64,000 bases of DNA from a virus. The notes beneath the pieces are model-generated. The model searched no databases and was not told the origin of the DNA. It saw nothing but the letters and a program-made list of their open reading frames with translations. Positions 14,550 through 19,786 of the stretch are shown piece by piece (the first letter of the stretch is position 1; each line of letters starts with the position of its first letter). The stretch is taken from the IMG/VR virus record IMGVR_UViG_3300037247_000990, positions 1-64,000 of that record. One strand, written 5' to 3'. A program made the position numbers and the translations under genes.

Positions 14550-15959
14550 ATGGCGAAGACAGCAGCAACCAAGAAGGTAGCGAAGCAGACGGCGACGTTC
14601 GCCGAGTTCGGCCAGTCCGGGCTCAAGCGGCAAACCGGATTCGTCCGCGAGGAGTTTCTCCCCGAGCTGAGGGGGCTGCGCGGGCTTAAAATCTACACCG
14701 AGATGTCGAGCAACGACAACATCGTCCGGTCGATGCTCTTCGCCATCGAGATGATGATCAGGTCCGTCGAGTGGCGCGTGGAGCCGGCATCCGAGGAACC
14801 CGAAGATATAGAGCAGGCCGAGTTCCTGGAGACCGTGATCGACGATATGTCCGTGTCCTGGGTCGACCTGGTCGCGGAGATCCTCTCGTTCCTGCCGTTC
14901 GGCTGGTCGTACCACGAGATCGTGTACAAGAGACGCGAGGGCCCGGGCCGAGACCCGACCCGGAGGTCGAAGTTCGACGACGGCAAGATCGGCTGGCGAA
15001 AGATACCGATTCGAGCTCAGGAGACCCTGGTCAAGTGGCAGTTCGACGACTCGGGCGGCCTCGACGCGATGGTCCAGCGAGTCCAGGGCCAGGTCGCGCC
15101 GGTCGTCATCCCCATCGAGAAGGCGCTGCTGTTCAGGACGAGCACCCAGAAGCAGTCGCCTGAGGGACCGTCTATCCTCAGGGGAGCCTACCGCGCCTGG
15201 TTCTTCAAGAAGAGGATCGAGGAGATCGAGGCGGTTGGGTTAGAGCGGGACCTGGCCGGGTTCCCGATCATATACGTGCCGCCCGGCATCATGGACGCCA
15301 ACGCCTCGGCGGCCGACAAGGCCCTGTTCGACGACTACCAGAACATCATCCGTAACCTCCGCCGGGACGAGCAGGAGGGGCTGATCCTGCCCGGGTCCCG
15401 CGACGATAAGGGACACCGCTGGTTCGAGCTGATCCTCCTGTCCACCGGGGGTCGCCGGCAGTTCGACACCGGCAAGATCCTGGAGCGATACTCGCGCTGG
15501 ATCGCGATGACGGTTCTCGCCGACTTCATTCTCCTGGGACACGAGAAGGTCGGGTCGTTCTCGCTGAGCTCCGACAAGACGGCGCTGTTTGCCACCGCAC
15601 TCGGGGCCTGGCTCGACTCCATCGCGGCGGTGTTCAACGACCACGGTATCCCCCGGCTATTCGCCCTCAACGGCGTTTCGTTCGAGCACCAGCCGACGCT
15701 GGCCCACGGTGACATCGAGAGCGTTAACCTCGACGAGCTAGGCAAGTGGCTGACATCACTGGCGAGCGCCGGCATCGACGTTACCGACGAGAACACGGAG
15801 GCCTGGTTCCGCGCCCTGGCCGGGATGCCGGAGGCCCTGCGAGAGGACGACGGGGCGGAGGGCGAGGAGGAGGACGAGGACGACCCGGAAACCCGGAGAC
15901 CGGCCTCACCGAGTGCCGAGGAGCTCGAAGAAGATGCTCGTCGCGCGGCCGGCCGATAA
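14550..15959 (+). CDS. portal protein
   Basis: 469 residues. The pattern (SNDNIVRSMLFAIEMMIRSV, SFLPFGWSYHEIVYKRREG, ERYSRWIAMTVLADFILLG, FEHQPTLAHGDIESVNLDEL) is that of the DUF935/Mu gp29-like portal group, the dodecameric ring at one capsid vertex. A very acidic Glu/Asp tract (about 435-455) ends the protein. Starts four bases after the large terminase; its 3' end overlaps the MuF-like gene. Confidence 0.85.
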   Translation: MAKTAATKKVAKQTATFAEFGQSGLKRQTGFVREEFLPELRGLRGLKIYTEMSSNDNIVRSMLFAIEMMIRSVEWRVEPASEEPEDIEQAEFLETVIDDMSVSWVDLVAEILSFLPFGWSYHEIVYKRREGPGRDPTRRSKFDDGKIGWRKIPIRAQETLVKWQFDDSGGLDAMVQRVQGQVAPVVIPIEKALLFRTSTQKQSPEGPSILRGAYRAWFFKKRIEEIEAVGLERDLAGFPIIYVPPGIMDANASAADKALFDDYQNIIRNLRRDEQEGLILPGSRDDKGHRWFELILLSTGGRRQFDTGKILERYSRWIAMTVLADFILLGHEKVGSFSLSSDKTALFATALGAWLDSIAAVFNDHGIPRLFALNGVSFEHQPTLAHGDIESVNLDELGKWLTSLASAGIDVTDENTEAWFRALAGMPEALREDDGAEGEEEDEDDPETRRPASPSAEELEEDARRAAGR

Positions 15960-17865
15960 AGCGATCCGCGTAGGCCGGAGACCTGCCGGGCCGCCGGGCA
16001 AGCGCGGGCGGACGACTCGCGGAGTAGCCGACGCCAACCTCGCTGTGTTCCGCCGTGGCGTGCTGGCGGGCCTGAAGGACCTCAAGGGGCGAGCGTCGCT
16101 TGCCGAGATCGCGGACCAGATGTTGCGAGGTCAGCAGTTCAAGGTCCTCCAGATGTTCGGCGTCGAGGGCACCAGGGTGGTCGGCGACAGCCCGGAGTTC
16201 GGGGCCATGCTCAGGGTGTGGCGTCGCGTCTTCGAGGACTCGGCGATGGAGAACCTGGCCCGCACTCCGAGCCAGTTTCGTCGGCTCGGTCTGTTGAAGG
16301 TGACCCCGGAGGAGGCCGAGGCGGCTCTCGGGTTCAAGTTCGACATGTTCAATCCAGAGTCGGTGGCGTTCATCCAGACCAGCGAGTTCCTCCTGGTCAG
16401 GGGTATCAACAGGAGGACCCGCGAGGGCCTACGCACGATCATGTCGGCGTCGTTCCAGGACGGTATCCCCCCGGCGGCGTCGGCGCGCCGTATCCGCCAG
16501 ATCGTCGGGCTGACGTCAAAACAGGCAGAGATGGTCATCAACTTCCGGCGGGCCCTGACTGGAGGGCGCGGTGCCGGTCCGTTGCGTGCGGTTCTAAGCC
16601 GGCAGCTCCGAGACCGGCGGTTCGACCCCACGGTTCTTCGGGCCATCGACCAGGGCATCGTCCTGACGGCCGCGCAGAGGGAGAAGATGGTTGCCCGCTT
16701 CGCCGAACGGCTCCTGGCGTTCCGAGCCAACAACATCGCTCGAACCGAGACCATGCGCGCCGCCAGCGCTGGCCAGCAGGCTCTATGGAGCCAGATGGTT
16801 CAGCAGCGGATACTCATCCCCCAGGAGATGAGGCGGGTCTGGATCGTCACCCGGGACGACCGTCTGTGCCCGATCTGCGAGCCCATCCCCGAACTGAACG
16901 CGGGCGGCGTCGGGATGGACGAGCCATTCAGGACGCCCGCTGGCGATCTCATGCACCCGCCGGCCCATCCTCAATGTTTATCGGGAGACACGCTCGTACT
17001 GGCCTCTGGGGTTTCGGCCACGAGCGAACGATGGTTTGAAGGCGATCTCGTCGTCATTCGCACGGCCGGAGGCAAGCAACTCAGGTGCACAGCCAATCAC
17101 CCGATACTGACGGATCGGGGATGGATTGGCGCTGAGCTCCTTAATGTGGGCGACCAAGTAATCGGCCGCGCCGCCGGTAAGCGGATGCCGCCGCTTATCA
17201 ATAACGATGGCGACGATATGCCAACCCGCATCCATGATATAGCGAAAGCGTTTGGGTGTTCGCGCGGCGTGACGGCCAGAGAAGTGCCAGTGACCGCCCC
17301 AGACTTCCACAACGACGGGGTGGGCAGCGAGGTCGCAATTATACGGGCCAAGAGCCATCTGAGCGACGGTCTCGACGCCGCGAAATCTCAGCATCTTGCG
17401 CAGTACCTTTTCGTTCTCGGTTATCAGTGCCCCCGCGTTCGCGGCTCGCGCCATAGCGGCGCGGCACAATGTCTCGAAGCTCCGCTTTATTCCGAGCGAC
17501 GCCTTGTGAGCGGCCTTGACTTGATGACGGCGGGCAGCGGTGCTCATGCGGGACCACTTGAGTTCTTCGGCCTCGCTCTGCCCGCGCAAGGCAACGCCGT
17601 ATTCGATGAGCCGGGCCGTCAGGGTCTTTCGGCTAACGCCGAAGACGGGAGCGAGTTGGTTGACCGACTCGCCGGCCAGATATCTCCTGACCAGATCATC
17701 GGGGTCGAGCGGGTGCCATTTAGGGGGCATGTCTATAATCTCCAAACGGAAAGTGGTTGGTTCGTGTCAAACGGCATCATAACACATAACTGTCGCTGCG
17801 ACATGGCCCTGCGGAGGGTCGAGACGCTGGGCCGGCCGATTGTCCCCGGATCGAGGGCGGCGTGA
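15934..17865 (+). CDS. MuF/SPP1 gp7-like head morphogenesis protein containing an intein
   Basis: 643 residues from ATG 15934 (GTG at 15913 would add seven). The exteins make a 371-residue minor head protein of the MuF type, which binds the portal and may enter with DNA. The helical N-terminal domain is followed by ARTETMRAASAGQQALWSQM and the Cys/His motif CPICEP ... HPPAHPQ/CRCDMALRR. The intein interrupts exactly between HPQ and CRC, the conserved metal-like site, so splicing should be needed for function. The stop overlaps the HAD gene start (GTGA). Confidence 0.88.
   Translation: MLVARPADKAIRVGRRPAGPPGKRGRTTRGVADANLAVFRRGVLAGLKDLKGRASLAEIADQMLRGQQFKVLQMFGVEGTRVVGDSPEFGAMLRVWRRVFEDSAMENLARTPSQFRRLGLLKVTPEEAEAALGFKFDMFNPESVAFIQTSEFLLVRGINRRTREGLRTIMSASFQDGIPPAASARRIRQIVGLTSKQAEMVINFRRALTGGRGAGPLRAVLSRQLRDRRFDPTVLRAIDQGIVLTAAQREKMVARFAERLLAFRANNIARTETMRAASAGQQALWSQMVQQRILIPQEMRRVWIVTRDDRLCPICEPIPELNAGGVGMDEPFRTPAGDLMHPPAHPQCLSGDTLVLASGVSATSERWFEGDLVVIRTAGGKQLRCTANHPILTDRGWIGAELLNVGDQVIGRAAGKRMPPLINNDGDDMPTRIHDIAKAFGCSRGVTAREVPVTAPDFHNDGVGSEVAIIRAKSHLSDGLDAAKSQHLAQYLFVLGYQCPRVRGSRHSGAAQCLEAPLYSERRLVSGLDLMTAGSGAHAGPLEFFGLALPAQGNAVFDEPGRQGLSANAEDGSELVDRLAGQISPDQIIGVERVPFRGHVYNLQTESGWFVSNGIITHNCRCDMALRRVETLGRPIVPGSRAA
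16975..17790 (+). other. intein in the MuF-like protein
   Basis: 272 residues, Cys1 (16975) to Asn272 (17790), with Cys as +1 residue. Block A CLSGDTLVLASGV, block B CTANHPILTDRGW, block F GHVYNLQTESGWFV and block G NGIITHN/C are all present, with the penultimate His. Catalytic residues for class 1 protein splicing look intact. The ~150-residue middle contains TAPDFHNDGVGSEVAII. No LAGLIDADG or HNH motif lies in the sense frame; the endonuclease is encoded on the other strand. Confidence 0.9.
16978..17730 (-). CDS. Vsr-like homing endonuclease encoded antisense to the intein
   Basis: 250 residues from ATG 17730, with GGAG eight bases upstream; the TTG at 17745 is an alternative. N-terminal helix-turn-helix (RRYLAGESVNQLAPVFGVSR, then KTLTARLIEYGVALRGQSEA). 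The C-terminal nuclease domain has GPYNCDLAAHPVVVEVWGGH, WHFSGRHAARTPKRFRYIMD and GWHIVAIVIDKRRHPLTGGA, the pattern of very-short-patch-repair-like (EDxHD) homing endonucleases known from phages. The TAA stop (16980-16978) directly abuts the intein Cys1 codon. Codons of the two strands are in register. Confidence 0.85.
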   Translation of the reverse strand: MPPKWHPLDPDDLVRRYLAGESVNQLAPVFGVSRKTLTARLIEYGVALRGQSEAEELKWSRMSTAARRHQVKAAHKASLGIKRSFETLCRAAMARAANAGALITENEKVLRKMLRFRGVETVAQMALGPYNCDLAAHPVVVEVWGGHWHFSGRHAARTPKRFRYIMDAGWHIVAIVIDKRRHPLTGGAADYLVAHIKELSANPSPIRQYRVIGCAPELLASGRANDDEIAFKPSFARGRNPRGQYERVSR

Positions 17866-19039: not shown

Positions 19040-19346
19040 GATCGCTAAGAGAGTCGTCCTATGGGGAGCGTTCCTGGGCCTGGTGGCGGGCGGTCTAGGC
19101 GGTGCCTACGCGGCGGTCGATAGGTTCCTCACGCTGGAGACCCGCGTGGCGGCCAACACGTCCACCCTCCAACAGGACCAGTGGATCAACCTGAACCGGC
19201 TTAAGGCAAACGGCGTTCCGCTCACCAGGGAGCAGTGGACCCGGTGGTGTCGGTGGGGTCTGCGGTACAGGTTCATTCAGAATTGCGGGACGTGGAGCCC
19301 CAGGGGCGAACAGCCACGGCCGAGCCCGAGGCGCAGAGACCGATGA
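19032..19346 (+). CDS. small membrane-anchored protein
   Basis: 104 residues. One N-terminal transmembrane segment (VVLWGAFLGLVAGGLGGAYA) is followed by a helical stretch and a Trp-rich basic C-terminus (REQWTRWCRWGLRYRFIQN). No family recognised. Its place between packaging and protease genes is odd for a lysis protein. Overlaps the HNH gene by four bases. Confidence 0.6.
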   Translation: MDKIAKRVVLWGAFLGLVAGGLGGAYAAVDRFLTLETRVAANTSTLQQDQWINLNRLKANGVPLTREQWTRWCRWGLRYRFIQNCGTWSPRGEQPRPSPRRRDR

Positions 19347-19786
19347 GCTATCGCCGACCGCCTGCCCCTCCGTTCAAGACCTCGCCCCTCGGCATCTGCA
19401 TGGGTTGCGGCGTGGACACCGGGCGAACGAACGGGCGGTGGTGCAACGACTGCCGGATACCATGGCAGATCATTACGAGCCCGTCGTCTGCTCGCTACCA
19501 TGTTTGGAAGAGGGACGACGGGGTCTGTGCTGGTTGCGGGGAGTTCGCCGGCCATCTCCTCAATATGCCAGGGACTGAAAATACATGGCAGGTCGACCAC
19601 GTGTTCCCCCTCTGGACGGCGGCCGGCGAGATCGCTTTCTGGGGGCTTTGCAACCTCCAGACCCTATGCGGCCTCTGCCACAAGGCGAAGAACGCCAAGG
19701 AGGCTAAGCAGCGGGCGAAGGAGGCCAGGTGCCGGGTCAAGTTCGGCGGTGAGCCGGAGCCCGAACAGATGAGGTTGCCGTGGTAG
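19343..19786 (+). CDS. HNH endonuclease
   Basis: 147 residues from the ATG overlapping the upstream stop. N-terminal zinc knuckles CMGCGVDTG and CNDCRIPW, then VCAGCGEFAG, the HNH core WQVDHVFPLW, and GLCNLQTLCGLCHKAKNAKE. Free-standing HNH proteins near the terminase are common in cos-type siphoviruses, where they assist terminase cleavage; here it lies after the portal and head genes. It could be a packaging partner or a homing enzyme. Confidence 0.85.
   Translation: MSYRRPPAPPFKTSPLGICMGCGVDTGRTNGRWCNDCRIPWQIITSPSSARYHVWKRDDGVCAGCGEFAGHLLNMPGTENTWQVDHVFPLWTAAGEIAFWGLCNLQTLCGLCHKAKNAKEAKQRAKEARCRVKFGGEPEPEQMRLPW

Follow-up and report, generated by a model that had tools for sequence, protein, structure and literature searches.

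The MuF-like gene in the 64,000-nt window analysed here, a section of a 67.7-kb virus record, very likely holds a mobile intein of class 1, with the gene for its homing endonuclease lying on the complementary strand in codon register. The features of the sense strand are listed below, with slashes marking the splice junctions.

15913 to 17865, plus strand: MuF-like minor capsid or head morphogenesis gene, host of the intein (650-aa ORF; Pfam Phage_Mu_F, 8e-4)
16975 to 17790, plus strand: class 1 intein of 272 aa (junctions HPQ/CLSGDT ... GIITHN/CRC; assigned from its blocks and a Pfam match)
17089 to 17100, plus strand: block B, TANH (family consensus TPNH)
17302 to 17319, plus strand: DFHNDG motif (DFHGDG in the family), facing the nuclease core VVVEV
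17728 to 17763, plus strand: block F, HVYNLQTESGWF, with the antisense start codon and Shine-Dalgarno on its opposite strand
17776 to 17793, plus strand: block G, IITHN, plus the +1 Cys

The intein has the hallmarks of class 1, namely Cys1 (codon at 16975), a TxxH block B, block F and a terminal HN followed by Cys, and its sense frame is open throughout. These blocks, together with a match to Pfam Intein_splicing (3.7e-8), bear out the first-pass annotation, which had described a complete class 1 intein in a MuF-like gene. Cys1, TxNH, block F and the HN with its following Cys are conserved across the intein family. In the AlphaFold2 (AF2) model of the sense intein (pLDDT 69), only the two splicing ends are well modelled and residues 144-231 fall below a pLDDT of 50. 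The disorder of this middle region suggests that it is mostly a read-through linker of the antisense gene. An endonuclease encoded in the sense middle is ruled out by the same disorder and by the lack of a sense nuclease match in Pfam or PHROGs.

Two annotation points concern this neighbourhood. The intein-bearing MuF gene is labelled 'NAD+--asparagine ADP-ribosyltransferase' in MZ560703, MT677934 and OQ507916 and head morphogenesis or minor capsid protein in relatives; the former label is probably a misannotation. An ORF at 19235-19786 (+) of the window has an HNH-type motif (CAGCGE...HVFPL...LCGLCH) and is likely a separate downstream HNH endonuclease.

The complementary strand of the intein carries the second gene.

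16978 to 17730, minus strand: antisense gene, helix-turn-helix plus Vsr/DUF559-like nuclease, predicted homing endonuclease (250 aa plus TAA)
17740 to 17743, minus strand: GGAG, Shine-Dalgarno-like, 9 nt before the antisense ATG and opposite the block F Leu-Gln (CTC CAA)
16978 to 16980, minus strand: antisense stop TAA, opposite Leu2 (TTA) and directly abutting the Cys1 codon

The antisense ORF runs for 250 codons from the ATG at 17730 (255 if from an upstream TTG) and spans 753 of the 816 intein bases, in agreement with the earlier description of an uninterrupted 250-codon gene over 92% of the intein. Its stop (TAA at 16980-16978) touches the Cys1 codon, as had been claimed, and across the family its commonest position is opposite codon 2, next to Cys1. 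The frames are in exact register: codons on the two strands pair one to one as reverse complements, the third base of a sense codon being the first of its antisense partner and its first base the antisense wobble position. The pairing that had been pointed out between sense DFHNDGVGSEV and antisense DLAAHPVVVEV holds codon by codon. In block F, the His codon is the complement of the antisense ATG, and the region of the Leu codon that of a GGAG or GAGG Shine-Dalgarno. Across 94 non-redundant inteins, this His is encoded by CAT in 61/74 cases, against 40% for exteins, and this Leu by CTC in 70/86, against 25% (p 1e-26). A promoter scan for an antisense transcript returned nothing above chance. 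The antisense gene is unannotated in the annotated phage records examined.

When synonymous codons are redrawn from extein usage for the window alone, 2.3% of trials give an open antisense run of this length; the run is only mildly unusual because the phage is GC-rich. The same redraw test gave 22% for Gordonia phage Lennon and 0/5000 for the lower-GC Snoke. Relatives are more informative about chance. Searches of the collection with the sense intein and with the antisense protein found 56 and 11 loci, respectively, which with two phage records amount to 51 unique inteins. Each of the 51 has one long open frame in this antisense register, and its sense frame is free of stops. For the 36 unique inteins that were found through the sense frame alone, extein usage of the sense codons TTA, CTA and TCA predicts 143 antisense stops, and none was seen. 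A profile search with the antisense protein, built on a closer 11-row subset of the 51-row alignment, matched at least 383 stretches of viral contigs plus 15 in the genomes of bacteria from several phyla. Homologs of the antisense frame are thus present, and stops in it are missing from the sense-found relatives. As judged by sequence comparison, this evidence settles that the predicted antisense frame is more than chance; a chance open frame is rejected by the stop deficit, the substitution pattern and the dual-frame omegas given below. The suggestion in the first-pass annotation that DFHxDG middles occur in other phage inteins proved correct, with F, H and D invariant in 51/51.

The fetched antisense-profile loci have an open sense frame opposite the nuclease in all cases except one, L141, and where motif patterns missed a splicing block the sequence has block variants or a contig end. 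In L141 the MuF gene is intein-free with HPGCRC intact. The sense intein frame there has several stops and has lost its blocks, and facing it is an intact, freestanding nuclease gene of 286 codons (L141:2809-3669). The decay of the intein beside an intact nuclease indicates that the nuclease outlives the intein, an apparent transition from an intein-borne to a freestanding form. A wider search with the L141 protein for more freestanding members returned only L141 and two ordinary intein-borne members.

The antisense protein is divided as follows.

17602 to 17703, minus strand: helix-turn-helix helices, residues 10-43 (AF2 model; Pfam HTH_7/HTH_58/HTH_28)
17128 to 17418, minus strand: nuclease domain, residues 105-201 (AF2 model; 3r3p, 3hrl and 1cw0 matches)
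17305 to 17343, minus strand: catalytic-core motif YNxD...VE (Y130, D133 and E142 invariant in the 51)

Conservation spans the whole protein, with Y130, D133, V141, E142 and P203 invariant. Single-sequence Pfam matches of the window protein are weak (HTH_7 0.0012, MTES_1575 0.01), while at the family level helix-turn-helix families are matched at up to 1e-11 and the nuclease family MTES_1575 is matched in 25/51 members. Against the PDB, the family profile matches the endonuclease-like 3hrl (8e-6) and the homing endonuclease I-Bth0305I (3r3p, 0.0095). The AF2 model, made from an alignment that excluded rows from phage records, has a mean pLDDT of 92.8. Its top Foldseek match is again I-Bth0305I (probability 1.00, target TM 0.69-0.70), with 3hrl (probability 1.00) and Vsr 1cw0 (0.99) both in the top ten and modest E-values of 0.01-0.06 (0.013), which places the model in the Vsr-type nuclease fold. 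Among candidate Vsr-like/EDxHD catalytic residues, as judged from conservation in the family, E107 is conserved in at least 90% and D133 is invariant; the downstream His is not invariant and E142 is. The protein is thus predicted with high confidence, from its family and modelled fold, to be a helix-turn-helix plus Vsr-like nuclease. The first-pass assignment to these two domains, weak for the single sequence, becomes firm for family and predicted fold, and the comparison with Vsr-like homing endonucleases that it had proposed finds I-Bth0305I first by fold.

Patterns of substitution distinguish the two frames. In 11 Guernseyvirinae phages, substitutions counted on spanning-tree edges without a full codon model are distributed over sense positions 1:2:3 as 233:44:104 in the intein middle and as 232:135:738 in the N-extein, a reversal of the position pattern (Fisher 4e-49). 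Approximate dual-frame ratios follow the same division: omega_sense and omega_anti are 0.44 and 0.16 in the intein middle, 0.12 and 0.23 in the N-terminal splice part, and 0.20 and 0.89 in the N-extein control. Other clades go in the same direction (8154:4139:5845 in the middle vs 1492:764:1876 in the N part, with some redundant pairs counted). Purifying selection in both frames, which the first-pass annotation had proposed looking for across homologs, is thus found in the middle region. At DFHGDG the Phe and His codons are almost always TTC and CAC (51/51 and 50/51), although synonyms would be open to either frame taken singly, suggesting that both frames are locked there. The sense motif, at 17302-17319 and in all relatives, is also invariant beyond what the antisense protein requires.

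The codon-position reversal, together with L141, rejects the idea that antisense similarity is a shadow of the sense protein. A broader form of that idea holds that the sense intein is the sole gene, its antisense strand open through GC-rich codon usage and conserved as a mirror. The redraw frequencies for the window alone and for Lennon would suit it, but it is refuted by substitutions that spare the antisense frame, by a high-confidence fold for the antisense protein only, by the start and Shine-Dalgarno codon bias in block F, by the persistence of the antisense gene where the sense frame decays in L141, and by the Snoke redraws; we give it practically no weight. The converse, in which the sense insert has lost splicing and is just a tolerated loop, as proposed for ShiLan, with the antisense nuclease alone of importance, is very improbable. 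A disordered sense middle is what such a loop would have, and insertions of the ShiLan type, lacking splicing domains, are known (PMC11855218), but the splicing residues are conserved across the family and the low omega_sense of the N-terminal splice part indicates selection on the sense product.

A second kind of antisense endonuclease is found in Gordonia phages Lennon and Barsten, whose MuF intein carries a different in-register antisense ORF.

L189:2486-3076, minus strand: antisense LAGLIDADG-like ORF of Gordonia phage Lennon (PHROG 5046 and I-MsoI matches)

The Lennon/Barsten intein and the Vsr-type inteins of relatives share their C-extein start. Its antisense ORF is related to PHROG 5046 endonucleases (2e-15) and I-MsoI (0.0013); the ORF itself has no Pfam match, and a freestanding relative gives weak LAGLIDADG matches. 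Substitutions at sense positions 1:2:3 number 51:6:16 in the antisense region vs 7:7:29 in the N-extein, a pattern in favour of the antisense frame. From these sequence relationships, a LAGLIDADG-like endonuclease seems to occupy the same antisense slot as the Vsr-like enzyme. An antisense LAGLIDADG-like ORF is present in the MuF inteins of Sitar, Nordenberg, Thing3, SchottB and Barsten as well. We consider it likely that antisense encoding of the homing endonuclease is recurrent and had at least two origins, involving unrelated nucleases (Vsr-like and LAGLIDADG-like), with endonuclease expression separated from the host late gene and splicing motifs doubling as start and stop signals for its translation.

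MuF alleles without the intein are common. The MuF protein of fEg-Eco19 is 98% identical to that of Snoke and is without Snoke's intein, and between jersey and ER12 the insertion site is the exact point at which identity rises from ~70% to 85-100%. Insertion sites in the family include HPxC in MuF and TCAx/C in L024/L096. One MuF ORF (L003) holds two family inteins, at ARTE/T and HPNC/C, each with an antisense nuclease homolog, and the same kind of intein is present in an apparent large terminase (L061:4001-5077; STEYDLI/CAFEATEL).

We infer homing by the antisense nuclease from its family, the presence/absence alleles and the genomic context. That homing is reached by inference leaves some room for a real nuclease-fold protein whose present role is another one, as a regulator, a nuclease against competitor phages or an inactive enzyme, and the large helix-turn-helix part and the missing canonical Shine-Dalgarno or start in some members would be compatible with such a role. 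We nevertheless judge it unlikely: catalytic-type residues are invariant, the nearest solved fold is that of a homing endonuclease, the gene is found inside inteins at several insertion sites including the terminase, presence/absence alleles exist, and in Lennon a LAGLIDADG-like enzyme takes the same antisense position.

Under the homing interpretation, the sense strand would encode a splicing domain made of two well-folded ends with a largely disordered linker between them, and the sense product would splice itself out of MuF. The antisense gene, starting at the ATG and Shine-Dalgarno inside block F and stopping beside Cys1, would be expressed as a helix-turn-helix plus Vsr-like nuclease. MuF alleles that lack the intein may be cut by this enzyme at their conserved C-terminal HPxC codons, after which repair templated on the intein-bearing copy would transfer the whole unit.

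If true, mobile inteins need no in-frame endonuclease, and every codon can serve two selfish functions, one on each strand. The element would then be among the clearest testable long, fully overlapping antisense gene pairs in register with a known chemical function per strand, and inteins in Salmonella jerseyviruses, Gordonia vividuoviruses and Pseudomonas and Klebsiella phages would call for re-annotation. It also suggests that the antisense strand of inteins now called mini-inteins or endonuclease-free deserves checking.

No intein with an antisense endonuclease was found in the literature searched, which consisted largely of papers outside subscription journals. In 'fractured genes', split inteins reportedly occur with freestanding Vsr-like endonucleases, the endonuclease gene lying between the two halves of a split gene. 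A Vsr-like endonuclease is tied to inteins in both settings, whereas here its gene overlaps the intein itself. The portal inteins of Mycobacterium phages Gizmo and Cane17 (L187/L188) likewise have class 1 blocks, an endonuclease inside the intein and presence/absence alleles, but their LAGLIDADG-type sequence is in the sense frame, while the window nuclease is a separate protein on the opposite strand. I-Bth0305I (PDB 3r3p), a Vsr-like/EDxHD enzyme and the best fold match of the nuclease domain as well as a profile match, is a mobile intron protein according to its PDB entry; the window protein, at ~14% identity, adds an N-terminal helix-turn-helix and lies antisense inside an intein. The nearest described case is the ShiLan insertion, a hidden HNH ORF that is without detectable splicing domains or a ribosome-binding site and is termed out-of-frame, with the opposite strand or antisense never mentioned (PMC11855218). 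In both elements an endonuclease ORF overlaps a read-through insertion in a phage gene, and the sense product is disordered while the hidden ORF is well folded (PMC11855218). Unlike ShiLan, where a splicing element is lacking, the window element has complete intein blocks and is a true intein, with a Vsr-like enzyme encoded on the opposite strand in exact register and a Shine-Dalgarno in block F.
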